Assembly (NCBI GenBank): GCA_036768485.1
Contig: JAVLUZ010000330.1
Coordinates: 62,001-126,000, forward strand
Reading direction: 5' to 3'
Origin: Mermis nigrescens
Taxonomy: Eukaryota > Nematoda > Enoplea > Mermithida > Mermithidae
Length of the DNA stretch: 64,000 nucleotides
Shown here: piece by piece, positions 583 through 18,111 of the stretch
How positions within the stretch are numbered: the stretch's first letter is position 1
Layout of the letters: each line of letters opens with the position of its first letter
Position numbers and translations under genes: made by a program
The notes under the pieces: model-generated
The model's input: the letters and a program-made list of their open reading frames with translations, nothing else
Told to the model about the DNA's origin: nothing
Databases searched by the model: none

Positions 583-1277
583 AGTAGTACAGCATGGCCC
601 TTGGGGCGCTACAATGATTAACTATACTACATGTTGAAGCATAGGCGCAAAGCGCCGAGCTCAGTACACTTGTACTTGAAGGCACAAGTGCACTGTACCC
701 CTTGAAATACCAGGGCAAGCTGGGGCGAGCTAGCCCTGGGGAGGGGGTTCGGGCCATACCCTTGAAGTCCCAGAGCTAGCTGGGGCGAGCTAGCTCGGGG
801 GCCCAGGCTGTTCAGCCTGAGCATATTCTCTGCAATTCCGTCGAATGTAAAGGAGACTTGAAACATCATTTTCACGGGTTTAACTAGGAAGTATGATTCA
901 TCATAAGTACACTCGTACTAAACTAAGCAACTTCACAACCTCTTCAGAATTTGGTTCACATAATTTTTAATAAACCATTCACTGATAAAAGGAACAGTTT
1001 TAATCATTTCAGAACATTTTCTTTTTTGATAAAATTTGATGCCTTCAAGAATCGAACCTCAGGTTCTGAAATCGTAAGTTCCACCTTCTACCACTAGACT
1101 AGACAAAGTGTCGCTACAAAAATTTTATTCTCTATACATTCCAAGGGCGTTTACACTGAATAGACATTTCTTTTATTGACTACATGCATAATTTTTATCC
1201 ATTAATTTAAAAATGCTGTGATCAGGTCACAACAAGTGCTGTATAGGTAGTATGATTAATCACATATTGCTCAGATA
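583..1277 (+). repeat. Left terminal inverted repeat of the Polinton
   Basis: Pairs with 15043-15741 along its length with scattered mismatches and small indels. It holds two tandem GC-rich blocks (about 702-806, GGGGCGAGCTAG words) close to the tip, and a tRNA-like segment at 1041-1110. The repeat ends at CTCAGATA, 13 bases before the stop codon of the TBP gene, so TBP is the gene nearest the terminus. Confidence 0.93.
1041..1110 (-). other. tRNA-like segment with A and B boxes in the left inverted repeat
   Basis: On the minus strand this reads TAGTCTAGTGG (A-box-like, 1091-1101) followed about 33 bases later by GGTTCGATTCT (B-box-like, 1048-1058), the spacing and words of a pol III internal promoter. 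The D-arm is most like tRNA-Glu/Asp. I cannot form a proper 7-bp acceptor stem, so a functional tRNA is unlikely. The other inverted repeat carries the same segment. Confidence 0.5.
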
Positions 1278-1290
1278 TGTACACATAACC

Positions 1291-1824
1291 TCATATGTGG
1301 AAAGGGCTTATGAGAAAAATAACGTTTCTATAAAATTGGTGTACTTGCGACTCAGTTTTCAGACCTGTGATTACGATCTTGCCAGAACTGAAAATGAGCG
1401 CCGTAGCTCTGCTATCTGGGAATGTAAGTTTTGCGGCGCAAAACAACTCGGGTTCATACTCAACAATTTTGCGATAAGCTCTAGCGAAAGATGGTACGTT
1501 TATTTGCCTATGGATATTGCCAGAACCAACGACGTTATGGATTTTATGAGTGGTAAGTTGTAGCTTATATTCACTAGTTTGTAATAATTTGCAAATTTTC
1601 TCGTTTGCAACGTTATTTTCTTGTATGCTCCTTGCACCTACACAAACTAATTTTCCCGAATTAAATAACAAACCTGTTGCTTTAGGTTCTTTTAATCTAA
1701 TAATCATAGCATTGAAACGCTTATGATCGAACTCTACCCCATCGCAACTTTTCTTAATTTTGTATAAATTTAGGGGTTTTGCGGAAAGCCGAGCTGTTGA
1801 AACAACGTTCACAATCGTAGCCAT
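1291..1824 (-). CDS. TATA-binding protein (TBP) homologue carried by the Polinton
   Basis: The 177-aa product covers both repeats of the TBP core. Repeat 1 (about residues 4-82) has RFNAMIIRLKEPKAT and LLFNSGKLVCVGA; repeat 2 (about 94-175) has YEPELF and LIFSSGKIVITG. The four phenylalanines that TBP pushes into the minor groove of the TATA box are all in place (F37, F54, F128, F145), as are the two SGK turns. There is no N-terminal extension, so it is essentially only the DNA-binding saddle. It has no introns, starts at ATG 1824 with a TATA box (TATAAATA) 36 nt upstream, and ends 13 bp from the inverted repeat. I infer a nuclear transcription factor that recruits host pol II, or possibly pol III, to the element's TATA promoters. 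TBP is not part of the usual Polinton gene set as I know it. The identity is secure from motifs; the role is inference. Confidence 0.9.
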   Translation of the reverse strand: MATIVNVVSTARLSAKPLNLYKIKKSCDGVEFDHKRFNAMIIRLKEPKATGLLFNSGKLVCVGARSIQENNVANEKICKLLQTSEYKLQLTTHKIHNVVGSGNIHRQINVPSFARAYRKIVEYEPELFCAAKLTFPDSRATALIFSSGKIVITGLKTESQVHQFYRNVIFLISPFHI

Positions 1825-1860
1825 TTTGATTAATAATGATAATTAATTGAAAAACACGAG

Positions 1861-1868
1861 TATTTATA
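1861..1868 (-). promoter_or_regulatory. TATA box of the TBP gene
   Basis: Minus-strand TATAAATA, 36 nt before the ATG at 1824 and just before the end of the penton-like gene. TBP may therefore activate its own promoter. Confidence 0.65.
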
Positions 1869-1871
1869 TCC

Positions 1872-3376
1872 TTAAAAGTAGGACGGTTTAATTTTTCGGA
1901 AATGCAATTTGACAATCACTTTCCCCGAAATAAATGGAACAAATTCATCTAAATCGTCTTTAATATTAATTTCAATACTTGAAATATCTTTAACTAGGAC
2001 AGGTACGTAGCACTGCTTTTTTTTTGTACGAGACAAAGATTTTGAGGCTCGTACAAAGATTTTCGGAGCCATCTTTGTACAATGTACAAAGACTTTTTGG
2101 GGCAAAGTAATAGTAATTTTAACGTTTTTTTTGGAGTATTTTTTAGCAAAATTTCTGAAAATTTTCGGCGCTTCACGCCGAGTATCATAATTACATTCTA
2201 TTTAGCTCCAGGCGCGGGCATTAAACACTCCAAAATCTATCTGTAAGCATCTTTGTACAGATTGAAGCATCTTTTACATCTATTTCCACTGTTTTATAAA
2301 GATTTTATGCAGAAAAAAGAACTATTAAACAACTGTGCACTGTTTTCTGCCGTTTGAAGATAAAATTGACTCTTTTATCTTTGCGTTGCATTAAATTCAT
2401 TAGCAAATTGGTGTCTAATATGAGATTCAGTCAGCACATTGCAACCGCTTATTATTTATAATTGTAAAGCACAAGTCATTTTAACTTGCTGAGTCGAATT
2501 TTATGTGTAATTTCAACCTAAGTCTCATGAAAATTTTGGCGTTTCGGGCCGAACTAATGTAACCAGCTGAATTTAGGACAAAGTTACACCTTTTGCGAAG
2601 CGTGCGGGTCACGGATAACAATCTAGTAGTATGTAAAAATGTGTACATATAATTGCATATCTATACGGTATATGTACAAAAAATTTTTGCTCGTACAGAA
2701 GACTTTTACGGGGATCTTTGTACATGTACAAAGAGGCTCGTACAAAAAAAACAGTGGTACGTAGTGAGGAAAGTCGAAGGTTTTATCGATAATATTGGGG
2801 TAGGACCCTTCTACGTTAACAATTTGTAATAAGGGAGCCGCCTACATCTCCAACAATTTGTGGTTCCAAAATATTTGCGTAAATGTACAATACTTCAATG
2901 CCCCCAACGTGTATATTTGGTTCATTAACGCCCCATACTGATTTTGTTATTTTGTTATCTTGAAACCCTAAAATTTTGGTTATTTCTGGTGGTAATGTTA
3001 CTGATTTTACAAATTCACTGTACACTATTGTTTGTACTCGCTTTATCGTACTAAAGTATTTAAAAATATTCCCTTTTTCACAATTTTGCCCCCATTTAGA
3101 AGGCAGAATTGCATCGTCTCAACAAATTCATGTATTGAGTCGTAACACCCTAGCGGTATCTTAATTACATGATCGTCGTCATTAGCGTCTGTTATATGAA
3201 TATCAGTTTTTTCAGTTTTTAGCGTTTCCCAATTGTGTGGTAGATTAGCTGACATAGACCACATTCCAATCTCCAGTCAATTTAATTTTTTGTGGCAAGT
3301 GTACGGTAAATTCAGATGAGGTATTTTGTTTATCGCTAACAGTGTTACTGGGTAATGTTACATAAAATTGATCCAT
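1872..3376 (-). pseudogene. Penton-like minor capsid protein, broken by frameshifts and a hAT insertion
   Basis: Pieces of one protein lie in successive frames from ATG 3376 to the stop at 1872. The N-terminal piece has FYVTLPSN and a Leu-Pro/Gly-Asp-Trp pattern. A middle ORF (3043-3264) contains NLPHNWETL. A third (2816-3025) contains LPPEITKILGF and LYIYANILEPQIVGDV. The C-terminal part (within 1872-2002) has IEINI and GKVIVKLHFRK. This is the minor capsid (penton-base-like) protein of Polintons and adintoviruses, which sits at the capsid vertices. At least three frameshifts separate the pieces, and a 746-bp element (2011-2756) splits the C-terminal part; the reading frame on its two sides abuts at the duplicated GTACGTAG. 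The start overlaps the end of the protease gene. Non-functional as it stands. Confidence 0.82.
2011..2756. mobile_element. 746-bp non-autonomous hAT-like element inside the penton gene
   Basis: It is flanked by a perfect 8-bp duplication GTACGTAG (2003-2010 and 2757-2764), which fits the hAT consensus nTnnnnAn. The ends are inverted: CACTGCTTTTTTTTTGTACG at the left and CGTACAAAAAAAACAGTG at the right. Inside are GTAC/TTTGTACA palindromes and TTCGGCGCTTC words shared with other copies in the window; 26740-27250 matches its interior closely. It has no transposase ORF. It entered after the Polinton had integrated or while the element was already decaying. Confidence 0.88.
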
Positions 3377-3867
3377 TGATTAGCAATTTGATTAACTAGA
3401 AATTCTTCATTTACTACTGTTGTGCTGAGCTTAAATAGACTATTTACAAAACCGGTAACAAATTCATCAGAAAAGCTTTTTTTCTAAACTTTGTAAAATC
3501 AATTTCATAGGCACTTTCTGCAGCGCCATACTAAAAAATATACGCACAATTGTCCGCACGTAGATGTTAGAGGTTTCTGCACACATTTTTTATTATATTT
3601 TAAGTGTGATGCATATTTTAGTATCGGTCTCATGCGTTTTTCACTGAAGCGATAGTCCGTAGCTATCGAAATATTCGCATTTATCATTTGCATCGAAAAA
3701 CAAGCATACCCAGTGGAGCCGGGCAGATTACTAGGGTCTGTATTCATAACTAATGCAGATGGTTTACTAAAAATTGGCGGTAGTTTATCACTGGAAAAAC
3801 TCCACAAAAAACTTCGACCAACCGCCTGGTCGCTGTTTAAAACATTAATTAGCTGAATAGTATTCAT
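3358..3867 (-). pseudogene. Adenain-like cysteine protease, frameshifted
   Basis: From ATG 3867 the first frame has the N-terminal signature ending NTDPSNLPGS. The catalytic His-Trp dipeptide is read only in a second frame just downstream (about 3710), the Cys block STCGQLCVYFL returns to the first frame (about 3545), and the C-terminal tail lies in further frames down to a stop at 3358-3360. The catalytic Cys is the one in QLC. The family (C5, adenovirus protease) cleaves capsid and core precursors during maturation. At least three frame changes are needed, so the gene is broken; the ORF that remains open (3505-3867) lacks the histidine in frame. It begins 4 bases after the native capsid stop and its end overlaps the penton start, as in compact Polinton capsid cassettes. 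Confidence 0.82.
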
Positions 3868-3870
3868 CTT

Positions 3871-5440
3871 TTAAGCAGTATAATCAAATATTACATTTCT
3901 ATGCTTATCTAACATTACTAAATTATCAAATTCGGCGCAAACTACTACTTCAATACCTGTATCTGGAATTTTTTCTGCAAAGAAATTTCAATGCTAGTCG
4001 TATCTTCCCTAATTGGATCCACACCTGGGCGTGGGGGGTTTGGGGGTATGCACCCCCCAGAAACTAAATACCCCCAGAAATCAAAATACCCCCAGAATTC
4101 AATTTTTTGAAAATTTTTTCGTTTTTTTCGCAATATTTTGATGCCAATGGATAGTGCTTGATGAGAAACGTCGAAAAATGGTGTTTTTATCGCCATACCA
4201 CCATTTTTAAGGCCATTTTTCGACCTTCAAAAAAATCATGCACCCCCAGAATTTTCTTGCTGCCCACGTATGATTGGATCCCAATGGGCGCCGTCATCTT
4301 CGTCGGGAGTGAGATCAAATGCAAAAAGCACTGACCATCGTTGAACCCTTCTCGAGTTATATTGTTTCCTTTATTGTCCCTAGCAATATCCAGCACTTCA
4401 AATAATTGATCAAACGCTCTAATATACTTCCCTTTCTTAAAATCTAGCTTCAGAGGATGGGAAGGAAAAGTCGCGCCACCAGAAATCACTTTAACTTCAT
4501 TTATGCTATATGATTTAAAATTAAATGGCGATTTTTTAACGTCACCTTGATACGCGTCTGCATCGATGCATCCAAAAATTATGCGTCTAGGGAGCTGTCC
4601 GGAAAATAATGTGTTAAGTGGGGTTGACTGAGATGTACTGGGAATGTGTAAGTTCATCATCATTACTCTACGAATAGGATACTTTGCAGTATTTTTAGTC
4701 AGCACTTGCTCAACAGCTAAATGCACACTGTCTAAAATTTCGGTTTTTCTTACTAAAAATTTCATTTGTTGTACACTCAGACGAGCATTTATTGCTCCAC
4801 CTGGGCTTTCTAAAACAAATGCATCCGGATTTCTATTTAATTCGAGTCTTAAATCGGTATAGTTTAATAAAACTCTGTCTTGCAAAAATAAATCAATATG
4901 AAGCGGAGCTGTTACTTCGATTATTGTTTTATCTTTAAAGTAAGAAACGCGCTGTTTAAAGCCATAATTATCTTCAGAATCCCGTTTATTATCTTGAGTA
5001 TACAATGCGGATTGTAAATGCGAATTTTTTGCATCCCAATTATAGCTAAGTTCGGTCTCTAAGAAAGCTCTGTATGCATATTTATCGCCGCTATCATGTA
5101 CGAGTTTACCATTTAAAAATAACTTGACTTGTCTAAAAAATGTTTTACCAATTAAATTTATAGGCGCTACAGCTGGCGTGGCAGGAATTTTTCCATCTGC
5201 TCCTGCTAGCATAACACCTGGAGATAATGAAAGCTGCATGTAAATGTAATTTTTATTTAGTTGCAAAAAATGAGGATCGGGAGGTATGTGAAATTCGTAA
5301 GGACCTTCATCTGTTACCGGGTTAGTCAAATTGATTTCATCCCAATATCCTCTTTTCACAGCAACCTGGGTAGGAGGAACAGTGAAAAAATCTAACTCGC
5401 TTTTTGTACTAGCGAGTGAGAGTGAATCGATTAATGACAT
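3871..5440 (-). pseudogene. Major capsid protein (double jelly-roll), 3' part broken by a MITE and frameshifts
   Basis: The ORF 4187-5440 encodes 417 aa; roughly the first 370 are the Polinton major capsid protein of the C. elegans F54H12.2-like family, the double jelly-roll hexon of the capsid. Visible family blocks are the N-terminal DFFTVPPTQVAV, PYEFHIPPDPHFLQL, FFRQVKLFLNGKLVHD and YPIRRVMMMN. Near 4330 the native frame is lost, and a 253-bp MITE (4020-4272) with duplicated ATTGGATC interrupts the C-terminal coding part. The last ~29 residues of the ORF are MITE sequence. The native stop is visible at 3871-3873 after one more frame change near 3965. The start is ATG 5440, overlapping the 3' end of the pX-like gene by 10 bases, with TATAAAAG 43 nt upstream. 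Confidence 0.88.
4020..4272. mobile_element. 253-bp MITE (CACACCTGGGC...CCCACGTATG family) in the capsid gene
   Basis: Exact 8-bp duplication ATTGGATC (4012-4019, 4273-4280), hAT-like. The ends CACACCTGGGC and, inverted, CATACGTGGGC form short terminal repeats; runs of C/G follow. The same family occurs at 31182-31445, 41206-41435, 41962-42205, 42270-42520, 51967-52208, 54935-55160 and, truncated, 29886-29990. Confidence 0.9.
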
Positions 5441-5853
5441 TTTCGTTTTTGCTTTTTACTTGAAAATATATCCTGCTTAGGTTCTTTTATAGACTTTGGA
5501 CGCACCCCAAGACCACGTCCCTTTTGTAATGCTTCATTTGCCTGTTTTAATAAATTTGATGCGCCTTCTTTTCCATGCTGTTCGAATGATTGTATTATAG
5601 GTCGACCGTGTAGAACATCAGCTGCTACGTGAGCGCCGGATGCAAGCGCCTGCTTACCAATGCTAGTCGCCGCTGATTTCATTAATGGTATAGCCATTCG
5701 AAAAAGTGAGCGAAAAAAGTTACCCAAACCCGCGCCCCGTTGGTAAGGTGTTCCCCTAAATCCTATCATATTACCATAGCCGACCTGTGAAGCCTGGTCG
5801 CTATAGTAGTCGAGCCAAATGTTAAAATTTTCGGGATTAAATTGTTGTCTCAT
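5431..5853 (-). CDS. pX-like core/membrane-active protein of the Polinton
   Basis: A 140-aa basic protein with a Gly-rich lead (RGAGLGNFFRSLFRMAIPLM, about residues 39-58), an Ala/Gly middle (SIGKQALASGAHVAADVLHG) and a lysine-rich C-terminus (SSKKQKRKC). This profile matches the pX/mu-like proteins of Polintons and adintoviruses, thought to bind packaged DNA or disturb membranes during entry. It starts at ATG 5853 with TATAAAAG 33 nt upstream, and its last 10 bases overlap the capsid gene start. It is intact, with no frameshift. The family match is clear; the exact role is inferred from adenovirus analogues. Confidence 0.82.
   Translation of the reverse strand: MRQQFNPENFNIWLDYYSDQASQVGYGNMIGFRGTPYQRGAGLGNFFRSLFRMAIPLMKSAATSIGKQALASGAHVAADVLHGRPIIQSFEQHGKEGASNLLKQANEALQKGRGLGVRPKSIKEPKQDIFSSKKQKRKCH
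5484..5496 (-). promoter_or_regulatory. TATA promoter of the major capsid gene
   Basis: Minus-strand AAGTCTATAAAAG, 43 nt before ATG 5440, inside the 3' end of the pX-like gene. It is the same 12-base core (AGTCTATAAAAG) as before the pX-like and membrane-protein genes. Confidence 0.7.
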
Positions 5854-5886
5854 TTTTAGAATTTGTTATTTTTTATGCACGCATTT

Positions 5887-5899
5887 CTTTTATAGACTT
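5887..5899 (-). promoter_or_regulatory. TATA promoter of the pX-like gene
   Basis: Minus-strand AAGTCTATAAAAG, with TATAAAAG ending 33 nt before ATG 5853. Confidence 0.7.
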
Positions 5900-6624
5900 A
5901 TTTTTGTCCAATTTTTCAACAAACTGCGCGTACGTGGTCTTTTTTTAAGCGCTGGCGGCGTTAGCGCCTCATAATTGTCTGATGGTGTGCTTTGCGTACG
6001 AGCTCTTTTGTACATTGTAGAGGGAGTAGACATATCGGGCGATACATACAACTCTTTTTCTTGCAGTAAGCTTAAACGTTTTTTATTTACAATAGATGAT
6101 TTTGGCACATTATCGTCCATTAATTTTTGCAGAAAAATGTCGGCTCCTATAGCCGGCTCAGACTTGCCTGTTCGGGAAAAATCGGTAATTAAATCTACAA
6201 TATTTGAACCAACAATTTTATTCCCAGCAATAATCATTTCACCTTTGTCAGACCATCTAATGTGTGGACTTGTGCGCGCATATTGTAACAGTGACATGGC
6301 ATTTTTTTGCCATTTTATTGGTACTATGTTAAACACTGCCTCCTTTACGGAATCAATCACTTTATTTTCCTGTGAGTCACGTGAAACCTGATTATTCAAT
6401 TCCTTAATTTCTAATTGAAGCGGTTTTTCAGAATCTTGCTTAGCAATTTGATACCTATGCAAAATTTGATTATATTTTACTACTTTAGCATCAATGGGCA
6501 ATGTCTTATCTTGCAAAATGCTTAACATTTCATTATCTAAATCTGACATATATTTTACATTGCTTTTGTTTTCTCCCGCAGCTAACTCGTGCGGTACTAA
6601 AATCATCTTGTTTGCGTGCATCAT
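5890..6624 (-). CDS. Conserved Polinton structural-type protein (KMILVP family)
   Basis: The frame is open from 6750, but the conserved part begins at the paired Met codons at 6624/6621 (MMHANKMILVPHE), so I prefer that start; the upstream part overlaps the 99-aa gene in another frame. The product (about 244 aa) has an acidic helical region (about residues 20-80, with KVVKYNQILHRYQIAK), a middle ending in IADLITDF-type sequence before a GADIFLQKLMDDNVP block, and a basic tail (KKRPRTRSLLK). The pattern Lys-Met-hydrophobic-Val-Pro plus the late Asn-Val-Pro block is recurrent in Polintons, where the protein sits beside the capsid genes; no biochemical function is established to my knowledge. 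It lies between the 99-aa gene and the pX-like gene. Possible alternative: a frameshifted extension of the 99-aa protein. Confidence 0.68.
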   Translation of the reverse strand: MMHANKMILVPHELAAGENKSNVKYMSDLDNEMLSILQDKTLPIDAKVVKYNQILHRYQIAKQDSEKPLQLEIKELNNQVSRDSQENKVIDSVKEAVFNIVPIKWQKNAMSLLQYARTSPHIRWSDKGEMIIAGNKIVGSNIVDLITDFSRTGKSEPAIGADIFLQKLMDDNVPKSSIVNKKRLSLLQEKELYVSPDMSTPSTMYKRARTQSTPSDNYEALTPPALKKRPRTRSLLKNWTKISL

Positions 6625-6664
6625 CGTTTTATTATTGCATCCGCTAATAATTGACCCGCAATTC

Positions 6665-6964
6665 CTAATATAGGCGCAAGGAGAATGGGTAGAAAACCGC
6701 CTTTTTGCACGAGCAAGTTCTTTTTTCGTTAATCGTTGCATTGCTATCAATTATACGCCTAAGCAGCGATTTGTACTTAATCAATTTTTCAACTTCATTA
6801 GATTTTAAAGGAATATTGCCATTAAGAACATTGAGAATGCATTCGCATAGGCATATGATTAGATCATTATCGGCAGTTTGTAATATTGCTCTACGCTGTT
6901 TAGGTCTAGCCTTGGCGAGCACGTCAATGTGACTAAAATTTTTGCGTAAACGTTTTGGAGCCAT
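6665..6964 (-). CDS. Conserved small basic Polinton protein (99 aa)
   Basis: Begins MAPKRLRKNFSHIDVLAKAR and carries KPKQRRAILQ-type basic sequence (here RPKQRRAILQ), DNDLIICLCECILNVLNGNIPL, then KYKSLLRRIID. This short protein recurs in Polintons and adintoviruses immediately upstream of the capsid block; its function is unknown, and the basic N-terminus with a helical core suggests DNA or core binding. The usual C-terminal hydrophobic segment is poorly preserved (KKAVFYPFSLRLY), so the 3' end may be decayed. ATG 6964 has TATAAAAG 35 nt upstream. The 3' 86 bases overlap an open but probably non-coding extension of the next gene. Confidence 0.75.
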   Translation of the reverse strand: MAPKRLRKNFSHIDVLAKARPKQRRAILQTADNDLIICLCECILNVLNGNIPLKSNEVEKLIKYKSLLRRIIDSNATINEKRTCSCKKAVFYPFSLRLY

Positions 6965-6999
6965 ATTTTAAGAATGAATAAAAATTACAATATACATTT

Positions 7000-7012
7000 C
7001 TTTTATACTTTT
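7000..7012 (-). promoter_or_regulatory. TATA promoter of the 99-aa gene
   Basis: Minus-strand AAAAAGTATAAAAG, 35 nt before ATG 6964; it overlaps the last codons of the ATPase gene. Confidence 0.65.
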
Positions 7013-7614
7013 TCAGTATAAACTACAGAACGATTTGAAAAGATTTTAGCTCTAAGACGTAAGTTTTCCGATATAGATTGAGTCAAGTCGACTAAAAGGA
7101 ATGAAAATGGTTCTTTTGTAGCATCATTAAAGGCTTCTAGAAAAAATTTAGGATTATGAGGGTAAAGCTGACGGGCTAATGTTTGCACTTGAAGCCGATC
7201 TGAGGGGTTTTTCATTAAAACTAAATATTCTGTGTTAATGCGACACGTTCTTAAACCCTTAAAAAATATATTTTGTACTATATGTACAACAGAAATGTTC
7301 CAGTGATGACACCCTCGTGTAAATAATATTTCATTTTTCATTTCATGCATTAAGTCATCGATAATTACAAGCTGAGGTTCATACGAATATTCTTTAACTA
7401 AACTTAAATCAGGAGGGCCTTTAATAAATTTTACAAAATTTTCAAATTCTTTATGTAAAGTTTGCTCTTCAGTGTAAAACCACCAAATATATTTAGGAGA
7501 GGGAAAAATCAACTCACCAGCGTTTTTTACGAGTTGCCTAACAAAAGTCGTTTTCCCAGCTTTTGTTGGTCCAGCTATGATGCACGTGAATGGGTGTTTA
7601 AAGCGTAGATCCAT
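7003..7614 (-). CDS. Genome-packaging ATPase (FtsK/HerA-type)
   Basis: I start at ATG 7614 (MDLRFKHPFT), the conserved beginning of the family, rather than the upstream Met at 7665. The protein has 203 aa: Walker A GPTKAGKT (residues 15-22) and Walker B LVIIDD (82-87), followed by HHWNISVVHIVQN, the sensor region of Polinton packaging ATPases, and an NPSDRLQVQTLARQLYP block. It would drive DNA into preformed capsids at a single vertex. TTTATATT lies 33 nt upstream as a TATA-like promoter. It is uninterrupted, unlike the capsid, protease and penton genes, so loss of the packaging motor did not precede loss of the shell. Confidence 0.93.
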   Translation of the reverse strand: MDLRFKHPFTCIIAGPTKAGKTTFVRQLVKNAGELIFPSPKYIWWFYTEEQTLHKEFENFVKFIKGPPDLSLVKEYSYEPQLVIIDDLMHEMKNEILFTRGCHHWNISVVHIVQNIFFKGLRTCRINTEYLVLMKNPSDRLQVQTLARQLYPHNPKFFLEAFNDATKEPFSFLLVDLTQSISENLRLRAKIFSNRSVVYTEKV

Positions 7615-7647
7615 ATTAATTGCTAAAAGTTTGCTGCACCAATTGCT

Positions 7648-7656
7648 AATATAAAG
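7648..7656 (-). promoter_or_regulatory. TATA-like promoter of the ATPase gene
   Basis: Minus-strand CCTTTATATTA, 33 nt before ATG 7614. A weaker TATA than the others, but at the same spacing. Confidence 0.45.
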
Positions 7657-7669
7657 GAAGCTCACTCTG

Positions 7670-7775
7670 CCAACTCTAAAGAGTTGCCCAGCCTGCGGGA
7701 CGTGGACCCGGAGCTTCTTTGCAGGCCATTTTTTTGGTTTTTTTTTGTTTTTTTTTCTTTTTTTTAATTCTACAA
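7670..7775. other. Hairpins beside a long T/A tract
   Basis: On the plus strand a 7-bp stem (CAACTCTAAAGAGTTG) and a GCCTGC...GCAGGC stem are followed by about 40 bases of nearly pure T. A similar block lies at 10385-10490. Both separate a gene with the 67-nt promoter type from the next gene, so they may end or insulate transcripts. Confidence 0.45.
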
Positions 7776-7781
7776 ATAATA

Positions 7782-8168
7782 TTACAAGTGTAAATTGTCA
7801 ATAAGTCCCTTGATGCGATCAATTTGCGTTTCTACGGTATCTTCGGCTGGCAATATCCAAATCATACGGCATTCAGGGCGGAAGTGCTGCCACATTTCGT
7901 AGAAAATGTTCCGCTTGAAACTGTGCACATTACGTTCTAACGCAATTGCAAAATACCAAAAACCTCGTATTTTTCTTTTTCCACTGAGTCTATTTGTTTG
8001 ATTATAGTTTTCTGCTTTGAATTTCCATTGCTGTTTGTAGTGATCCGTAAAACGATTCCAGAAATACGAAGCAACGCGTGCCAAGTCACGGTTTTCATAC
8101 AGATTATATGCAAATGAGGAGAGTAACTGATCACAGAAAATTACAAAAAGAGCTTCGCCACGAGCCAT
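7782..8168 (-). CDS. Unknown 128-aa Polinton protein, co-regulated with the polymerase
   Basis: I do not recognise this protein. It is a mixed alpha/beta-looking, Trp/Phe-rich sequence (SYFWNRFTDHYKQQWKF, RGFWYFAIALERN, FYEMWQHFRPECRMIWILP) with no clear zinc, nucleotide or membrane motif. What supports it is position, length and promoter: ATG 8168 follows at exactly 67 nt the same CTCTCCTTTTATACTTTTGAG block (as read on the plus strand) found upstream of the DNA polymerase. By promoter class it would be expressed with the replication gene, so an early or regulatory role is possible. The 65-aa ORF at 7937-8134 is an overlapping frame and not counted. Confidence 0.65.
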   Translation of the reverse strand: MARGEALFVIFCDQLLSSFAYNLYENRDLARVASYFWNRFTDHYKQQWKFKAENYNQTNRLSGKRKIRGFWYFAIALERNVHSFKRNIFYEMWQHFRPECRMIWILPAEDTVETQIDRIKGLIDNLHL

Positions 8169-8230
8169 TCTATAAAACCGACTGAACAGTGCTGCGAAAA
8201 TGAAACAGAATGAATAGTTTAAAGAGTAAC

Positions 8231-8284
8231 TCTCCTTTTATACTTTTGAGCAGGTGAGTCATCAAAAACCGGAATAAACCGGAA
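8231..8284 (-). promoter_or_regulatory. Second-class (67-nt) promoter with AP-1-like site
   Basis: Minus-strand CTCAAAAGTATAAAAGGAGA (TATA at 8236-8242) lies 67 nt before ATG 8168. A TGAGTCA/TGACTCA AP-1-type palindrome is at 8255-8261, and CCGGTTT words are at 8265-8282. The block is nearly identical to that before the polymerase. Confidence 0.65.
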
Positions 8285-8290
8285 AAATGA

Positions 8291-8662
8291 TTAATTAATC
8301 ATGAAGGGAGGGGCTTTTTCAGGTTCAGCTGCAAGATTTTTTTGTTCAGCTATATGCCTATGCAAAACCACAGACCCTGCCTCCTGCGCCGCCCTGTTGT
8401 ACTCTACGCATTTTGGACACATTTGTATTGAGAAATAAACGCGACCCGAGTCTGTTACAAAACAGTCCCTTTCACAACTACTTTTTTGACAAAAGTAGCA
8501 CAATTCAATCATAAGAGGGTACATAGGGCGAGGCATATTGCGGGCACACAATTCGATAGGAGGTTTAATACTCCTACCGAATGGGCGCCTGTCCTCAATA
8601 GTGGTTTTAGGCTTAACTTCGGAAGGTTTTTCCATTTTTGTTGCTTCGGATGATGTATCCAT
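8291..8662 (-). CDS. Small zinc-ribbon-like Polinton protein (123 aa)
   Basis: The N-terminal ~50 residues are polar and basic. The core has CYFC (C55, C58), two further cysteines (C63, C67) and CPKC (C82, C85): two CxxC knuckles about 23 residues apart with RVYFSIQM between them. This resembles the two CxxC modules of the neighbouring 9732-10169 gene, so the two may be paralogues. The TATA (TATATAAG in AAGTCTATATAAG) is 30 nt upstream of ATG 8662. It lies between the integrase and the 128-aa gene. Function unknown; nucleic-acid or protein binding by zinc ribbon is the simplest guess. Confidence 0.72.
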   Translation of the reverse strand: MDTSSEATKMEKPSEVKPKTTIEDRRPFGRSIKPPIELCARNMPRPMYPLMIELCYFCQKSSCERDCFVTDSGRVYFSIQMCPKCVEYNRAAQEAGSVVLHRHIAEQKNLAAEPEKAPPFMIN

Positions 8663-8692
8663 TTTTGTTTTACATTTTTAGATCTCAAAGTT

Positions 8693-8705
8693 CTTATATA
8701 GACTT
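8693..8705 (-). promoter_or_regulatory. TATA promoter of the 123-aa zinc protein
   Basis: Minus-strand AAGTCTATATAAG, 30 nt before ATG 8662, at the integrase stop codon. Confidence 0.68.
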
Positions 8706-9729
8706 AGATTTTCACGATATGATTCACCCAGCTATCGAATTTATCAGGATAGCCACGCCATTTGACGAAATACTCAGTCTTTCCACGCTTTTTGCGCGTT
8801 TTTATTATTTTCTCTATAATGTATACATTGTCAATTACTTCGACTTTTTGCATTTCTGGTTCATAAAATACGCCTTCTAGTTTTTCGCCCATTGTATCTT
8901 TCAGGACGTAAACGGGCGGTTTTCTCTTTAACCGTTTATCAACTATAAACGTTTCTTCGCTCCAATTTGGTTCGTAGCCCTTTTCAAAAACGCCCTTCAC
9001 TTTGCTTATGCGTACTTTATCAGATATATCAAATTTAAACTTAATGTCACTTGTATCAATTTTGAATGCTTTTTGCAAAATTTCTCGTTCATTTTTAGAA
9101 TTTACGTTAACTGGCTCTATACCAATAGTGCGATGCTTTGTGTTATTATAGCCAATTAATAAATTTTTCAATACGTCTATGTATTTATACGTGTTGTGTT
9201 TCGTGAAATAGCGCCACATGCGTTCTTTTAATGTACGATTAAACCTTTCAACAACAGATGCCTTGAGCTCGCTGTTTATAGTAAAAAACTCAATATCGTT
9301 TTGTTGTAGAAAAGTTTGAAACTTTTTATTTGTAAATTCAGTGCCAGCGTCGCTTTGCACTTTTTCTGGCTTTCGGCCGCCTTCTAAAATTGATCTAAAT
9401 GCATTTACTATCGCATCCGCGCTTTTGTTTCTTATAGGTACGCTCCAAGCATATTTACTAAAGACATCGATACAGTTTAGTAGAAATGTGTAACCGTTGT
9501 TTTGTTTTTTAAGCGATTGCAAATCAGCTAAATCAATCGCCCATTGCTCGTCAATTCTTGATACTATAACTTTATTGCGGGCGTATTTTTTCTTTGATGG
9601 TTTATGCACCGTGTAAGCAGGCTGTGTTTCTAACCATTTTACTACCGTGTGTCTAGGCAGTTTAACTCGGGTACACAAAATATTTGCGCCAGTGTAACCA
9701 GTTTTAGGGTCGTAATACACTTTTTCCAT
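8704..9729 (-). CDS. Polinton integrase with C-terminal chromodomain
   Basis: The 341-aa protein is a retroviral-type DDE integrase. The core has D66 (WAIDLADL), D127 (QSDAGTEF) and E161 (ASVVERFNRTLKERM), with 33 residues between the last two acidic residues. The C-terminal ~40 residues form a chromodomain (YFVKWRGYPDKFDSWV), as in Maverick integrases; it may steer insertion to methylated histone tails. The N-terminal zinc-binding HHCC is not visible, as is common in this branch. The enzyme cuts and joins the ends of the element, which explains the 6-bp duplication. ATG 9729 comes 2 bases after the stop of the zinc gene; there is only a weak TATA-like TTATATTTC inside that gene, so it may be read from a shared transcript. 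Open throughout. Confidence 0.95.
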   Translation of the reverse strand: MEKVYYDPKTGYTGANILCTRVKLPRHTVVKWLETQPAYTVHKPSKKKYARNKVIVSRIDEQWAIDLADLQSLKKQNNGYTFLLNCIDVFSKYAWSVPIRNKSADAIVNAFRSILEGGRKPEKVQSDAGTEFTNKKFQTFLQQNDIEFFTINSELKASVVERFNRTLKERMWRYFTKHNTYKYIDVLKNLLIGYNNTKHRTIGIEPVNVNSKNEREILQKAFKIDTSDIKFKFDISDKVRISKVKGVFEKGYEPNWSEETFIVDKRLKRKPPVYVLKDTMGEKLEGVFYEPEMQKVEVIDNVYIIEKIIKTRKKRGKTEYFVKWRGYPDKFDSWVNHIVKI

Positions 9730-9731
9730 GC

Positions 9732-10169
9732 TTAATAGAAATATAATGCGTTTTTACCTTTTGCGATCGTACAAAACTGATTAGAACACTTTTTGCAGAA
9801 TTTTACAAAAATTTTCAGAGTAGTATTTTTGCGAGTAACTTTTAAAATGCAATGTTTGCATTCGACTGCAAAGCTTATATCGTTTGATTTAGATCGAGGT
9901 CCGTCTACATCTTCAAGAAAAAAATACAACATATATTTATTTTTCTTGACAACATTCACCTCGGCAGAACATTTTAGGCACAATCTAAATGTAAAACGTA
10001 ATTTATTTTTATCACTAACGATATCTAAAATGCAGTGCTTGCATCCTGGCTTAAAAAATCTACACCATCGTCGCAAAAAATGGGGTTCTTTACGGAGGAA
10101 GCTGCATATTTCGTAATGGTATGTTGATTTTGGCACTAGGAAACACAGAGGACACTGTGGGAGACTCAT
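9732..10169 (-). CDS. Duplicated zinc-module Polinton protein (145 aa)
   Basis: Contains two tandem copies of one module: CKHCIL...CLKCS (C43, C46, C64, C67) and CKHCIL...CKKCS (C104, C107, C125, C128), each with 17 residues between the two knuckles and each ending in a YFF/YFY block. An extra CPLC (C6, C9) is near the start. The internal duplication is plain by eye and the module resembles that of the 123-aa protein. Function is unknown; zinc-dependent nucleic-acid binding is a guess. The TATA (TATATAAG) lies 28 nt before ATG 10169. The first 80 bases overlap the 3' end of the membrane-protein gene, and the integrase follows after 2 bases. Confidence 0.78.
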   Translation of the reverse strand: MSLPQCPLCFLVPKSTYHYEICSFLRKEPHFLRRWCRFFKPGCKHCILDIVSDKNKLRFTFRLCLKCSAEVNVVKKNKYMLYFFLEDVDGPRSKSNDISFAVECKHCILKVTRKNTTLKIFVKFCKKCSNQFCTIAKGKNALYFY

Positions 10170-10338
10170 TTCTGCTAGAACCTAAACTACGCACTCTCTT
10201 ATATACCTTTTCCAGCTGTTTTTTCAAAAGCTTACATAAAATTAGGATAGATAATATTATTACAATTATAATACAACCCATTATTTCATTATAAATGGGC
10301 TGCAGATGATTCCTATCTATGCAAGTATCGTTGATCAT
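10090..10338 (-). CDS. Small single-pass membrane protein of the Polinton
   Basis: 82 aa with a strongly hydrophobic stretch at about residues 20-38 (MGCIIIVIILSILILCKLL) followed by a basic segment (KKQLEKVYKRVR) and a polar tail. No signal-peptide cleavage site is evident; a type III or II single-pass topology fits. I keep it as real because ATG 10338 has its own AGTCTATAAAAG promoter 24 nt upstream, identical to the promoters of the capsid genes. Its 3' end overlaps the zinc gene. A role in envelopes, entry or membrane docking is possible but not shown. Confidence 0.68.
   Translation of the reverse strand: MINDTCIDRNHLQPIYNEIMGCIIIVIILSILILCKLLKKQLEKVYKRVRSLGSSRNESPTVSSVFPSAKINIPLRNMQLPP
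10198..10207 (-). promoter_or_regulatory. TATA promoter of the 145-aa zinc protein
   Basis: Minus-strand GGTATATAAG, 28 nt before ATG 10169, inside the membrane-protein gene. Confidence 0.6.
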
Positions 10339-10362
10339 TTTTAAAAATTAATGCTTCAAAAG

Positions 10363-10374
10363 CTTTTATAGACT
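10363..10374 (-). promoter_or_regulatory. TATA promoter of the membrane-protein gene
   Basis: Minus-strand AGTCTATAAAAG, 24 nt before ATG 10338. Confidence 0.68.
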
Positions 10375-10384
10375 ATGTAGTACG

Positions 10385-10490
10385 CCTCTTTGCCGCATAA
10401 TGCGTTGCCCGGTGCCACCACTTGGAGGTGGGCGTACTTCGGCACCTTTTTTTTTGTTTTTTTCTTTTTTTTTGATTTTTTTTCAACAAA
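10385..10490. other. GC-rich hairpins beside a long T/A tract
   Basis: Stems GTACGCC/GGGCGTAC, CGCATAATGCG and GGTGCC/GGCACC on the plus strand are followed by about 40 bases of nearly pure T. It has the same architecture as 7670-7775 and again lies between a gene with the 67-nt promoter (the polymerase) and the next TATA promoter. Confidence 0.45.
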
Positions 10491-10601
10491 ATTAGACCAC
10501 CCGTGTTTCGACTACCCACCGGCACTTGCTCTTTTCAGGGAGATCCGGCAGGCAGGCGAGAACAAAACAAAATAGTAAACATAACCATCATACGAACAAA
10601 A

Positions 10602-10757
10602 CAAAATGACGTCTTGTCCAGTCACGCTGTGTTTCAAGACAGGTACTGGCCAGTGGAACGAAATAAACAAAAAGATTGACCAAGCAAAATGACGTCTTGT
10701 CCAGTCACGCTGTGTTTCAAGACAGGTACTGGTCATAGGAACGAAATAAACAAAAAA
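10602..10757. repeat. Two 83-bp direct repeats with interlocked inverted arms
   Basis: Two nearly identical units (starting 10602 and 10685) downstream of the polymerase. Each has GTCTTG...CAAGAC and CCAGT...ACTGG arms that cross each other, so RNA could form a pseudoknot-like fold, and a TGACGTC CRE-like word. This is the largest gene-free stretch inside the element; it could be a regulatory or replication site. Confidence 0.6.
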
Positions 10758-10821
10758 TGATGGTCAGAGGGTTAAATAATAAAATAAGGCACGGGGTAAA
10801 CAAAAAATATGCAGAAAAAGA

Positions 10822-13800
10822 CTAAAAGCCATACGGCACAGTAGAGAAATCGGGCTTTACAACACGTTTATTATAAACAATTTTGTACTTTTTTGACGCA
10901 TCTTCTGTCACAATAGTATGATCAGGCAAGCGTCGAATTTGCGGAAAATATACAACTTTTTCAACAATATTGTTTTCCTGTACAAACATTTTTACCATTT
11001 TTAATAATGATTGAAAATTAATTTTTGTGGCAGTCACTGACGACAATGTGAATCCACGGACCTTTATATGGTAATACATTTTACCATCTCTTGCTGAGCA
11101 TACTTTATACGCATAATTTTTAGGTCCGCCACTAACAAATTCGTCAATGTAGCTGCCTTCACCGTAATCTTTCAATTCATTTGTCATATTTCCTAAATAT
11201 GATCCTATAGGCACTCGATATTCATCATTGCCAAGTGTGCTTTTAAATATGACACTATCTGTGTCAAAGTATAAGACACGATCGCCAAGTTTTTCTAAAT
11301 GTTCGTATAATCTGAGTCGCGCTTGAGATGTTGTGTAAGCCGCGAGCACAGGATTCGTATTTCCCATCACATCGGCGAATTCATCTTCTTTCGCATGTGT
11401 AACGGCCATCAGATTTTCATTAATCGCGTTAATTGAGTAAATTACATTTGAAGGGTCAAAAATTAAGTCAAAATATGGGGCTGGATCGGTAAAAAATGAA
11501 ACTTTTGACATGTTATTTCGCTGTCCAAATTTCCCCCAGAATGAATTTAACATTAGTTTTGCGAGAGCGCGCATACCGCCGTTTTTCGTAATTTTTGTAG
11601 CATCTAGTTCGATTCCTTCGTTATCTTTGTAATCTTGCACGTATTTAGCTCTGTCGTCATCCGATTTTACCCATGCAGGCCAACCATCCGATTCTTGCTT
11701 TAGTTTCATGAATTTGTTAATATATGACGTAAATAGACCACTGTCTGGGTTATTCATTTTATCATATTGCTCAGTCTTTTCATAGTGCCAGATTTCATAT
11801 ATTTCCATTATTTTGTAGCCCAATTCTAGCGCTTTATACACTTCGAGCGTTACCCATGCACCCACTATTGCACGTTCTTCGTCACTATGCTCGCATCTTG
11901 TTGTTTGATGCGTTTCAGTGCACGTTCTGCATAGTGGAAAATACAATTTTTCGCCAAATCTATAGGGCAATAAAGGGTGGTATACATTACTGGGTGGAAG
12001 AATTTTCGCTTTAATTAAACCTTCGTAGGGTCTGCTGTCAACTGTGATTTCAGAAAAATTTTCAGTCAAAATTTGTGGGTGGCCAATAGGGTACAGGCCG
12101 TATTTATTAACGGTCGGGTATAAGCTGCAGATATCTGTGTACATGATATGTTCTAATGGATCGCCATTTTCACTGCGTTCAATTTTCTCATATAACTTTA
12201 TTGCGTTTGTGCGCCCACCATAAAACGCTTCTCTGGGGTCAAGCGGGTCAACAATCTTTATTGAATCGAAAAATTGTTTCATTACAGGATTTGCTTTTAA
12301 TTCCCGTCGTAATTCACACTCCCAGAGTTCTATTACAGTATACCCCATTTTTTCAATTGTTTTGCGCCGTCGTACTGTATTTTGAAACGCTTCTTCGGCT
12401 GATGTTATTTGGTCTGCCGTCAGTTGTGTTCGTTTTTTCATGCATTTCGGACACCCATGCCAGAAGCATCCATTGAATTCGTACACTGTCTTTTCATAAA
12501 TTCCGTCTACGCGATAATTGCCCACTTTTTGCTCGCCCGTGTTGCGTGCGTGTCTAATGTTGATTTTATTCATTTCGCTGATCCACTTTAACCATTTTAT
12601 GGCTGTTATCGAATGCTTTTTCATTCGCCTATATCCGCCATGCGGTACTATACCTATTGTTTTTGGCTGTAAGTAAGTCGACCGGAAAACTTTGTTACAC
12701 GCGCTCGCTATTGTTAAAGAACACTCAAAAGGATCCATGCCCGTCTCGGCCATAAATAAATCGCGAAATTTAAGGCAGCATCGCCTTAAAATGTCGACGT
12801 CAGACTCACAATAAGCCAAAAGTTCCGACTTGAAATTAAAAATTTTGCCCTTTTGTTCAGCGTACCATTTTTGAAAACTTTCTTTGTTTTTTGGGCTCAT
12901 GGTGGCTGGGGAGTAGTACCACGCATCTGGCCACTCACCTGCATAATTTTCATTTGCACGTGTATTGAAAAGATGCGGAAAAAAGCCTTTTTTTAACTCA
13001 GGCTCATCGAACGTTTTTGGCAAAGCAGCTAGGGCCATAGGCAGAAAATTGAATGAATCAATTAATTTTATCGATCCTGCACTAAGGCTCATGATTTCTA
13101 AACCCTTTGTGACTATAGTGGGCGCGACAGCTTGTTTAAACAGGTATTTTAAAATAAAGTGTCCGTCAAAACCTTTAGCGTTATGAGCGATTGCTATAGC
13201 ATTTTCGAGGCCAAAAAGAAAATCACAAAATGCATCTGTGCAATTTTCGCCATAAAATATGCGCTTGTTTTCGCCGCATTTATCGCATAGTCCAATCGGT
13301 TTTGCTAGGCAGTCTGTACATACAATATGCGCTATACATAAATTTGGTTCATGCTCCATCCTTGAATTACCACATGCTTTTTCTTGCCTGGTTTCGAAGT
13401 CAAAAAACACGTATTTTGTTTTTTTCTTTTCATCTTTTCCTTCGGCTATGACTTGCATAAAACATTTATGATCGTTATTAATAGGCACGTCAGCTTTACA
13501 CGTTTTACAATAAAAGTGACCACATTTATGTTTCCGTATTTTATCGATTCTATTTACATGCCGACCACAATTTTTACAGAGCATCTTTTGTTGACAAATC
13601 GACTTTTCGTTTTTTCCGACTTTTTTATGATTTTCAAAACACTTCCGACCTCTAAATAGGCGATTACAGTCTGTACATTCCGCGAGAGCAACATTTGGGC
13701 ATGCTGAACCGTAGCAACATGGGCAAAGTTTAGAACAACGGTGACCAATCTTATCGTTATAACCCTTGTTACAAGCTTCGCAAAAATAACCGCGATTCAT

Positions 13801-14723
13801 AAAGCCGGTCATACTACCAATAACGTCAAAATGATTATTATTATGATACAAGTGTACTACTTTTTCTGCGGACGGTCCTTCAAAAATTATGGCATTACAG
13901 AAATCGGCGCTGAAAACTTTAATTTGAAAATTAGGCATTGCAGCCTGTAATGCTTGCAGCTCTGCTATACTGCAAGGGCCTATATGATCTGTTAAGCCAG
14001 CAAGATTCATCAATTCTAGCGCTCTTGTTCGCTGCATAGTGTATCGACGTGCATCACCTCTGCACATGTGTTTATATTTTGCTTTAAGAGTTTTATCGTC
14101 AGGCTTTTCCATGTGCAACGCACGCGCTTTTGCTACTACTAATGCTCGGGGCAAACATAAATCATCATTGTTTTTAATTTTTACAAAACAGTTTTTCATT
14201 ATCATTTCCTTTTCCAAATTTATAAATCTACGTTTATGCTGTCCTGAACCATTTGGAGGGCTAACCTGTACAATTTTTATCCGCGTTTCCGGCTGTTCGA
14301 GCTTTACTTCTTCATTAGACTGCAAAATGCGTTCGATAGTATGTACAATTTGTTCGCCATTTATTTGTTTGCCTTTTCGGAAAGGTACAATTGCCGTTTT
14401 CTTCAGCGTCGGATGCGTGACCTGCACGCCCACCATCTCCGTTGCACTTGTCCCATCCATGATTTTCATGATCGCGCTATCAAAAATTTCGGCCAAATTT
14501 TTTTCCAAATCGAGATGATCGAGGTTCTTGAAATTCAACATGTACGCGCGTCCTTCTGTGTTGAATCGTTTTATCTTTTGGATTTCTGGTTCCCCCAGTT
14601 CGTAAAATTCTTCTGGGGAAACCACTCATCTACAACTTCAAGGTCTTCCTCCCGCATTTCTTCGTCCGATTCGTACCATGCATCTTGCGTTAATAATTCT
14701 TCCATTTCAATATTGGAGCCCAT
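10822..14723 (-). CDS. Protein-primed family B DNA polymerase of the Polinton
   Basis: The long open frame (10822-14625, 1267 codons counted from a GTG at 14625) is a complete Polinton PolB. In order: conserved N-terminal region with RRFINLEK and LCLPRALVVAKA (about 132-170), several CxxC zinc knuckles (282-388), exonuclease ExoI DFE (409-411), ExoII HNAKGFDGHF (481-490), ExoIII YCESDVDIL (605-613), an insert with YEFNGCFWHGCPKC (715-728) typical of these enzymes, motif A DICSLYP (831-837), motif B KLMLNSFWGKFG (about 1023-1034) and motif C YFDTDS (1119-1124). It copies the element from its ends using a protein primer. The natural start is probably ATG 14723 (MGSNIEMEELL, an acidic leader); it is in another frame (98 nt offset), so one frameshift around 14625-14640 separates leader and body. 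TATA 67 nt upstream of 14723. Confidence 0.94.
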
Positions 14724-14784
14724 TTTTAAAAAGTCACCTTCTTCTGGAGCAAAGATTTTGGAGAATGATTTTTGCTAGTTCGCT

Positions 14785-14894
14785 CTCTCCTTTTATACTT
14801 TTGAGATGACTAATCGAAAAAAACCGGAAAAAACTGAAAAATTGTAGCTTTTGTTGGACTTTGGACTCAGTCATATGACTAACTCGATGACTCA
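14785..14894 (-). promoter_or_regulatory. Second-class (67-nt) promoter of the polymerase gene
   Basis: Minus-strand CTCAAAAGTATAAAAGGAGA (TATA at 14791-14797) lies 67 nt before ATG 14723. CCGGTTT words are nearby and a TGACTCA AP-1-type site is at 14888-14894. Compare 8231-8284. Confidence 0.65.
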
Positions 14895-15042
14895 TAGTTA
14901 TTTTAAAGTGAAACGATTTTTTTTGTATTTTTTAGTATTTAAAAATGTTAAAAATGCTTAGTATGTGTCGGCAATTTTTTATAATGCGTATAAAGAATGT
15001 TTTTAGCCAACAAACTAAATAATACACGATTTAAAGAGCATG

Positions 15043-15741
15043 TATCTGAGCAATATGTGATTAATCATACTACCTATACAGCACTTGTTGTGACCTGATC
15101 ACAGCATTTTTAAATTAATGGATAAAAAGTAGGTATGTAGTCTATAAAAGAAATGTCTATCCAGTTTAAACGCCCTTGGAATGTATAGAGAATAAAATTT
15201 TCGTAGTGACACTTCGTATGGTCTAGTGGTAGAAGGTGGAACTTACGAATTTCAGAAGCCTGAGGTTCGATTCTTGAAGGCATCAAATTTTATCAAGGAC
15301 GAAAATGTTCTGAAATGATTAAAATTGTTCCTTTTATCAGTGAATGGTGTATTAAAAATTATGTGAACCAAATTCTGAAGAGGTTGTGAAGTTGATTAGT
15401 TTAGTACGAGTGTACTTATGATGAATCATACTTCCTGAGTTAAACCCGTGAAAATGATGTTTCAAGTCTCCTTTACATTCGACCGGAATTGCAGAGAAAA
15501 TGCTCAGACTGAACAGCCTGGGCCCCCGAGCTAGCTTGCCCCAGCTAGCTCTGGGACTTCAAGGGGTATGGCCCGAACCCCTCCCCCAGGGCTAGCTCGC
15601 CCCAGCTTGCCCTGGTATTTCAAGGGGTACAGTGCACTTGTGCCTTCAAGTACAAGTGTACTGAGCTCGGCGCTTTGCGCCTATGCTTCAACATGTAGTA
15701 TACTTAATCATTGTAGCGCCCCAAGGTCCAGCTGTACTACT
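15043..15741 (+). repeat. Right terminal inverted repeat of the Polinton
   Basis: Inverted partner of 583-1277, with inner end TATCTGAG and outer end CTGTACTACT. It contains the promoter word AGTCTATAAAAG on the plus strand (15139-15150), pointing towards the terminus, then the tRNA-like segment, then the GC-rich double block (about 15520-15630). Confidence 0.93.
15211..15283 (+). other. tRNA-like segment with A and B boxes in the right inverted repeat
   Basis: TGGTCTAGTGG (15219-15229, A box) and GGTTCGATTCT (15264-15274, B box). TTCGTA/TACGAA flank the A-box part. The acceptor stem does not pair, so it is tRNA-derived or a pol III promoter rather than a sound tRNA gene. Confidence 0.5.
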
Positions 15742-15747
15742 ATCCTT
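15742..15747 (+). repeat. Right target-site duplication of the Polinton (ATCCTT)
   Basis: Exact copy of 577-582, directly after the right inverted repeat. Confidence 0.93.
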
Positions 15748-16272: not shown

Positions 16273-16274
16273 TA

Positions 16275-16622
16275 CAGTGGTCGCCATGAAAGATGACGCG
16301 TATCATCCTCAGAATTATGATAGAGGATGCGTCGCGAGCGCCACATTACGTCCATCATGCGCTATCATCTCTTTTTCTATTAAGCGCCATTAACCTCTAT
16401 CATACCGTTAATCTGGCAATGCAGACGGCGCAATTTAGCTATTAATAGCGCCAACAAGAAGGAAGCGCGCCAGCATCACCAGATTAACGGGATGATAGAG
16501 GTTAATGGCGCTTAATAGAAAAAATAGATGATAGCGCATGATGGACATAACGCGGCGCTCGCGACGCATCCTCTATCATAATTCTGAGGATGATAGCGCG
16601 TCATCTTTCATGGCGACCACTG
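16275..16622. mobile_element. 348-bp Tc1/mariner-like palindromic MITE
   Basis: CAGTGGTCGCC...GGCGACCACTG flanked by TA on both sides. Terminal inverted repeats of about 141 bp (16275-16416 against 16479-16622) enclose a short unique loop. It is unusually GC-rich for the window. No ORF. Confidence 0.85.
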
Positions 16623-16984
16623 TACAAAACATTTGCATATACTCGTACATTTGTATGCTAAAAGAATCACAGAACAATCGCTTTCTGTAAAACGTACTTA
16701 CATTCTGATTTAATTATCTTTTTAACAGATTGAAAGATGATTGTAAAGTGGCACTTAAGTACAGAGGCCTATATAAAAAGAGTTGAGAATATTTGAAACA
16801 GCCTTGTGAAAGCTTTTATTAAATCAATACAATAATTTATGTAATTCGACTAATATACACAAACATGCTGACGCGTATTCAGGGGGAAGGGGGAGGAGGC
16901 CGGTTCCCCCGGAATCGAAAAATAATAAAATTCTAAGATTAGGTCTGAAATATCACCAAAACAAATTTTTAGCGTACTTTTGAG

Positions 16985-18103: not shown

Positions 18104-18111
18104 CTCGTACA

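Follow-up and report, generated by a model that had tools for sequence, protein, structure and literature searches.

Polintons of the nematode Mermis nigrescens carry a gene for a predicted TATA-binding protein

Polinton DNA transposons in the genome of the nematode Mermis nigrescens carry a gene for a predicted TATA-binding protein (TBP), which, judging by its recurrence and conservation, is a long-standing gene of these elements and neither a stray nor a recent processed copy of the host gene. The gene occurs in Polintons that are present in many copies and have TATA boxes before most of their genes, which points to elements that supply a transcription start factor themselves and do not use only that of the host. 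The standard list of Polinton genes is not known to include TBP.

A Polinton with a minimal TBP gene

The reference element lies at 583..15741 of the window (the whole stretch of 64,000 nucleotides that was analyzed). Terminal inverted repeats (TIRs) of approximately 0.7 kb delimit it, and the 6-bp sequence ATCCTT is duplicated at the target site (577-582 and 15742-15747). The left arm (583..1277) and the right arm (15043..15741) have computed pieces running from 595 to 1277 and from 15043 to 15730, with the outer ends placed by eye, and the element ends read AGTAGTAC and GTACTACT. Together with a type-B DNA polymerase and a retrovirus-like integrase, these features mark the element as a Polinton. 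The polymerase, POLB (1239 aa; 10822..14541, minus strand), matches PF03175 with an E value of 2.6e-42. The integrase (341 aa; 8704..9729, minus strand) carries a chromodomain, with matches to PF00665 (2.2e-12) and PF00385 (6.9e-10), and a candidate A32-like packaging ATPase (203 aa; 7003..7614, minus strand) scores just under the cut-off of 22.8 bits with PF04665 (E value, 1.1e-4; 22.2 bits). A candidate for the double jelly-roll capsid protein, a 417-aa capsid-like open reading frame (ORF) at 4187..5440 on the minus strand, has no match in the Pfam scan, and its C-terminal part fails to align with a copy from a sister family of Polintons. The 120-aa ORF at 3505..3867 (minus strand) likewise gave no Pfam match in that scan; comparison with the sister copy identifies it as a homologue of the candidate adenovirus-type protease of the sister family, whose own match to PF00770 in the copy L054 has an E value of 4.5e-4 and 20.4 bits against a cut-off of 21.3.

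The TBP gene is read from 1824 down to 1291 on the minus strand as a single ORF from ATG to stop, free of introns as the initial annotation had stated, and 13 bp separate its stop codon from the inner border of the left TIR arm. The next gene upstream, at 1872..3264 on the minus strand, is the putative minor capsid gene of the initial annotation and a broken homologue of a 258-aa ORF of the sister family, recognized by eye in two pieces (1872-2072 and 3043-3264). The window copy is partly decayed: this adjoining gene is disrupted, and the ORFs resembling a protease and a capsid protein deviate locally from the sister copy; long open frames are kept for TBP, the ATPase, the integrase, and POLB. 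Pfam scans of the element, which took in part of its small ORFs, showed neither an RNA polymerase gene nor one for TFIIB. Outside the Polinton, the window also holds a reverse transcriptase ORF at 31357-32535 on the minus strand (PF00078, 2.9e-22), which probably belongs to a retroelement, and further inverted repeats at 16273-16624 and 17062-19036, one of which has arms that are 95-100% complementary and lie a few hundred bases apart.

The 177-aa product had been described as a complete two-repeat TBP core, and this description holds: PF00352 (TBP) matches the ORF with an E value of 2.6e-40 over two stretches that correspond to the two TBP repeats, and solved TBP structures match residues 4-174 at 2e-29. 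All four of the intercalating phenylalanines that kink DNA through the minor groove are present as had been claimed (F37, F54, F128, and F145), aligning with F197, F214, F288, and F305 of human TBP. An AlphaFold2 model built from an input of 23 aligned TBPs (pLDDT, 95; pTM, 0.86) displays the predicted repeated order of strands and helices. The predicted element TBP is a minimal core with no N-terminal domain.

Recurrence, synteny, and purifying selection

The window TBP protein was used as a query against the assembly from which the window comes (524 Mb, 860 contigs) and retrieved at least 150 scored matches, with identities from 100% down to 48%. Stop-free frames were found in 91 of the 150 matches listed and in 79 of the 108 among them that span at least 165 residues. 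At least 66 of these loci have an ATPase gene upstream on the same strand, 2.0-8.2 kb away, a lower bound given that both the TBP and the ATPase counts come from the 150 matches listed for each. The gap between the two genes is 3.95-4.17 kb in 52 of these 66 family-1 loci and 5.2 kb in the window copy. Since some of the loci seem to repeat a single duplicated region, they do not all represent independent insertions. Seen from the ATPase, 66 of the 93 matches with at least 60% identity have a TBP partner among the matches listed. When six partnerless ATPase loci (L055-L060) were read, three proved to have a TBP with frameshifts or breaks, one is cut short by the end of its contig, and in two the whole downstream part is missing. 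The occurrence of TBP in other Polintons of the same genome, named earlier as a check on the finding, is therefore borne out for many diverged copies with conserved synteny and for a second family, described below, that has the gene at another place. A search of viral contigs for relatives, with TBP, POLB, the capsid-like protein, and the ATPase as queries, gave nothing beyond one distant POLB locus (L001). At the locus L051 (5903-9030), a single 9-kb stretch holds a TBP, fragments of an integrase, and the ATPase in duplicate, which suggests nested or joined Polintons.

Evolutionary rates were computed from 48 loci (L002-L049), 45 of which yielded a TBP ORF no shorter than 100 aa; dropping five short or shifted frames and merging four identical ones left 36 sequences. 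The median dN/dS is 0.18 for pairs with a dS of 0.3-0.6 (61 pairs) and 0.24 for those with a dS of 0.1-0.3 (55 pairs), which indicates that the predicted family-1 TBP is under purifying selection; 436 of the 630 pairs are saturated. Among young pairs, the median rises to 0.36 at a dS of 0.02-0.1 (28 pairs) and 0.53 below 0.02 (15 pairs), as expected of copies that drift once inserted. Across the 36 sequences, F37, F54, and F145 do not vary, and F128 is kept in 35. Further, the distances between TBPs follow those between integrases over 12 elements (r = 0.64), with only 4 of 2000 permutations reaching a correlation as high; the element on contig C584, where the integrase has diverged far more than the TBP, departs from this pattern.

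A second Polinton family and a possible third set

A second family of Polintons is marked by ATPases that match that of the window at 56-59% identity (n = 57 among the matches listed). In four of the five family-2 loci that were read, a diverged TBP lies between the integrase and the ATPase on the opposite strand; the exception is L052, where it is absent. The TBP of L054 has an open frame of 171 aa that matches the Pfam TBP model at 2.4e-45 and shares 33% identity with the TBP of the window. Queried with TBP from Trichoplax, the assembly yielded at least 44 further matches outside family 1, comprising 19 with 172-aa frames like that of L054, 19 with 186-aa frames, and 6 others, which brings the distinct element-type TBP loci listed to at least 194. 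At least 14 of these 44 TBPs stand head to head with an ATPase, with 54 bp between the matched stretches. The notion that family 2 is devoid of TBP had arisen from the finding of no partner for any of its 57 ATPases among the matches listed; it is ruled out by the TBPs in four of the five loci read and by the head-to-head TBPs in 14 of the 57. At L054 (2418-3592), the TBP and ATPase start codons are approximately 45 bp apart on opposite strands. Because each is preceded by a TATAWAW box, their promoters would overlap.

The 19 intron-free TBPs with 186-aa frames, which are 36-41% identical to Trichoplax TBP and are known by their coordinates, may represent a third set. Examples in the assembly (G000) are C584:117136, C667:182821, C59:5545063, and C51:13505343. 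The initial annotation's proposal that "this lineage captured TBP" thus stands as to an element gene and understates its extent: TBP is found in at least two Polinton families, at different places in each, and has short relatives on contigs elsewhere.

The host gene and the origin of the element TBPs

The best candidate for the host TBP consists of two stretches approximately 2.7 kb apart on contig C73, which are 70% and 69% identical to Trichoplax TBP; the remaining 148 of the 150 Trichoplax TBP matches listed have identities of 33-46%. By this resemblance, the two stretches must be the host's own TBP gene, split. That a Polinton had once taken in a processed host TBP, a copy which would be missing from related Polintons and nearly identical to the host gene, had been raised from the start as an alternative reading, and the lack of introns in the window TBP is what such a copy would look like. 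What was found is a TBP that recurs in related Polintons and a separate host gene, the two being compared via Trichoplax TBP. With at least 150 matches in diverged copies, synteny, purifying selection, and a second family in addition, a processed pseudogene is ruled out, and we give the one-off copy practically no credence.

The window TBP is 31-37% identical to 12 other aligned TBPs, and the best other database entries reach 39%. A tree of 61 sequences, which includes one family-2 member (L054) and neither TRF/TBPL1 nor a named mirusvirus TBP, unites 11 family-1 sequences with four short TBPs (P0002, P0198, P0199, and P0201) in a single clade (support, 100/94). This clade falls outside a group of 40 sequences (90/88) that contains all of the eukaryotic cellular TBPs sampled, and the five archaeal TBPs likewise lie outside the clade. 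A clade of Polinton TBPs with animal TBPs has a p-AU of 0.26, i.e., it is not rejected by the tree test.

A single old capture of TBP is favored by these data. Families 1 and 2 might instead have taken TBP independently from different sources, in which case the gene would have been repeatedly useful to Polintons; the family-2 TBP differs in both place and orientation, and that of L054 forms a long, separate branch in the unconstrained tree. Against this, constraining family 1, family 2, and the four short TBPs to one clade gave a log-likelihood 14.4 above that of the free search (p-AU, 0.76), although the single family-2 sequence and the long branches weaken both results. We regard independent captures as a serious possibility that falls somewhat short of an even chance. 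The question concerns the single old capture and leaves the function of the protein untouched.

TATA boxes before element genes

The TBP gene of the window element is itself preceded by a TATA box (TATAAAT; 1862..1868, minus strand) 44 nt before its ATG. More generally, 9 of the 12 window genes have a TATAWAW motif 25-80 nt ahead of their start codons, versus 5.6% of all positions; in this count, two start coordinates are off by 2-3 nt and some small ORFs may be no genes. The same scan of 304 other ATGs on the gene strand gave 4.6% (p about 1e-9 for the window genes). In L054, 9 of 10 genes have the motif, against a background of 11.6% (p = 3e-8), and so does the L054 TBP. Before the family-1 TBP, the box is kept in 42 of 43 sequences (41 distinct places), at positions -32 to -47. 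It is also kept across subfamilies before the genes for the 99-aa (5/5 copies), 140-aa (6/6), 417-aa (5/5), 128-aa (15/16), 123-aa (7/8), and 82-aa (16/17) proteins. Before the 145-aa gene, it is present in 8 of 20 copies and missing in 12. No TATA box was found before the ATPase in any of 25 copies, where TATATTAG mostly stands in that region, or before the integrase in any of 19. The scans cover Polintons that carry TBP, and host TBP could serve the same boxes.

Proposed role of the element TBP

The reading that we consider probable is that the element TBP core binds the TATA boxes before most element genes, that of its own gene included, and recruits host TFIIB and RNA polymerase II, so that element transcription would start without dependence on host TBP or TFIID. 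DNA binding, promoter use, recruitment of TFIIB and the polymerase, and independence from TFIID are all properties that we infer from the sequences. At the positions that contact TFIIB in human TBP, the element TBPs keep E, E/D, and L/I, with the exception of a T in P0201, and the positions facing TFIIA vary. Such a pattern would fit a factor that uses TFIIB while escaping other host control. In the L054 TBP, the second of the DNA-contacting asparagines is replaced by L. The initial annotation had supposed that TBP directs transcription of the element's own genes, a view that gains support from the synteny, purifying selection, coinheritance with the integrase, TATA boxes, and separate host gene.

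It had also named competition with the host factor. Under this alternative, the element TBP would be a decoy that vies with host TBP for TFIIB, TAFs, and promoters and damps host transcription, with host TBP serving the element boxes. An excess of a protein with conserved TFIIB-facing residues would indeed compete, and the TATA box of the TBP gene would permit its strong expression. A pure decoy would have no need of the four phenylalanines, however, and their almost complete retention in the 36-sequence set points to DNA bending. Because TATA boxes stand before most element genes, transcription of these genes is favored over competition, which we think unlikely to be the main role. Less probable still, to the point of being a long shot, is a function in replication or target choice, such as bringing the integrase to promoters. 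TBP-containing complexes lead some retroelements to promoters, which gives the idea a precedent; the integrase here has its own chromodomain, however, and the target duplication, known from one insertion only, is ATCCTT and no TATA box.

Predicted HDV-like ribozymes and their possible role at transcript 3' ends

Two predicted hepatitis delta virus (HDV)-like ribozymes lie between the genes of the window element, both on the minus strand. The one behind POLB (10380..10446), before a TATA box at about 10370, matches RF02682 with 45.5 bits, the cut-off being 44. The other, before the ATPase gene (7657..7727, with the Rfam match at 7656-7729), reaches only 31.9 bits with RF00094 (E value, 0.23; cut-off, 50). 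This pre-ATPase ribozyme was recovered by a pattern search in 25 of 27 sources (the window and L055-L080), corresponding to 24 places since L057 and L067 show one place twice; L060 does not include this stretch, and L072 was missed, though its visible part agrees. Over 11 distinct sequences of the pre-ATPase ribozyme, 98.8% of the cells in the pairings P1, P2, P3, and P4, including the pseudoknot, are paired versus 25.5-52.4% in slid controls, a comparison in which the structure was drawn from the same sequences as were scored, which favors high pairing. Four pairs show changes in both partners; two of them belong to P2, the pseudoknot helix, and two to P4. For four of five measures, none of 500 shuffles equaled the ribozyme values; for the fifth (pair types), 499 of 500 did. 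Rfam searches of seven loci (the family-2 stretches and L055/L056) gave a single, weak HDV-like match, which lies in L053 (26.5 bits; E value, 0.82).

The 54 nt before each of the two window ribozymes are 65% and 70% A versus 34% over the element strand; in many other family-1 copies, the corresponding tract is A+T rich rather than A rich. A possible function of these ribozymes is to make the 3' ends of element transcripts: in family 1, a genome-encoded, A-rich, poly(A)-like tail would be cut free by the HDV-like ribozyme. Both the cleavage and its use in family-1 Polintons we infer from sequence and covariation. A tentative extension, which we consider rather less than evenly probable, is that the Polinton kit sets both ends of its transcripts, with the element TBP loading polymerase on TATA boxes and, in family 1, A-rich tails being freed by ribozymes; its probability is lowered by the restriction of clear ribozymes to family 1. 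If it is true, the element mRNAs would be made without host TFIID and without the cleavage and polyadenylation machinery of the host.

Comparison with known systems

Transposons, virophages, adenoviruses, and giant viruses are considered to be linked through Polintons. The transcription control of Polintons is little described in the literature searched, and a TBP under selection in at least two of their families would mean that an element of 15 kb has a general transcription factor of a kind noted until now in viruses of far greater size. The proposal is open to direct test by asking whether the element TBP drives element promoters and bypasses TFIID. In the same way, ribozymes behind A-rich tracts raise the question of transcript 3' ends made without the host machinery. 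In those parts of the open-licence literature that were accessible, supplements aside, we found no report of TBP in a Polinton, Maverick, or virophage and none of ribozymes in Polintons, and TBP terms are absent from the main text of three papers on related viruses (PMC11071296, PMC11071308, and PMC10120064).

The present elements share with Polintons/Mavericks the TIRs, the 6-bp target duplication, POLB, and the chromodomain integrase, to which come the candidate A32-like ATPase and, in the sister family, a candidate adenovirus-type protease; they differ in carrying the TBP gene. The predicted ribozymes share with HDV-like ribozymes (RF00094 and RF02682) the P1-P4 pairings with a pseudoknot, one window copy being above the Rfam cut-off, and differ in their setting between genes within a DNA transposon, where an A-rich tract often precedes them. 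Virus-encoded TBPs have several precedents: TBP is present in 59% of mirusvirus genomes (PMC10132985), falls within the conserved set of the Mimiviridae and their allies (PMC3620924), and is encoded together with two TFIIB genes by CpV-BQ1 (PMC12085832). What these viruses share with the Polintons is a TBP of their own, without any implication of kinship between the proteins; their genomes are hundreds of kilobases long, whereas the present case is a 15-kb transposon in which no TFIIB or polymerase gene was seen. A further parallel is offered by the mirusvirus-like heliorhodopsin elements of Cymbomonas, in which TATA-binding protein genes occur sporadically (PMC10675990). Like the Polintons described here, these are endogenous virus-like elements with TBP genes; unlike them, they are kin to viruses with HK97-type capsids, were found to have neither a polymerase nor a packaging ATPase, and are not Polintons.
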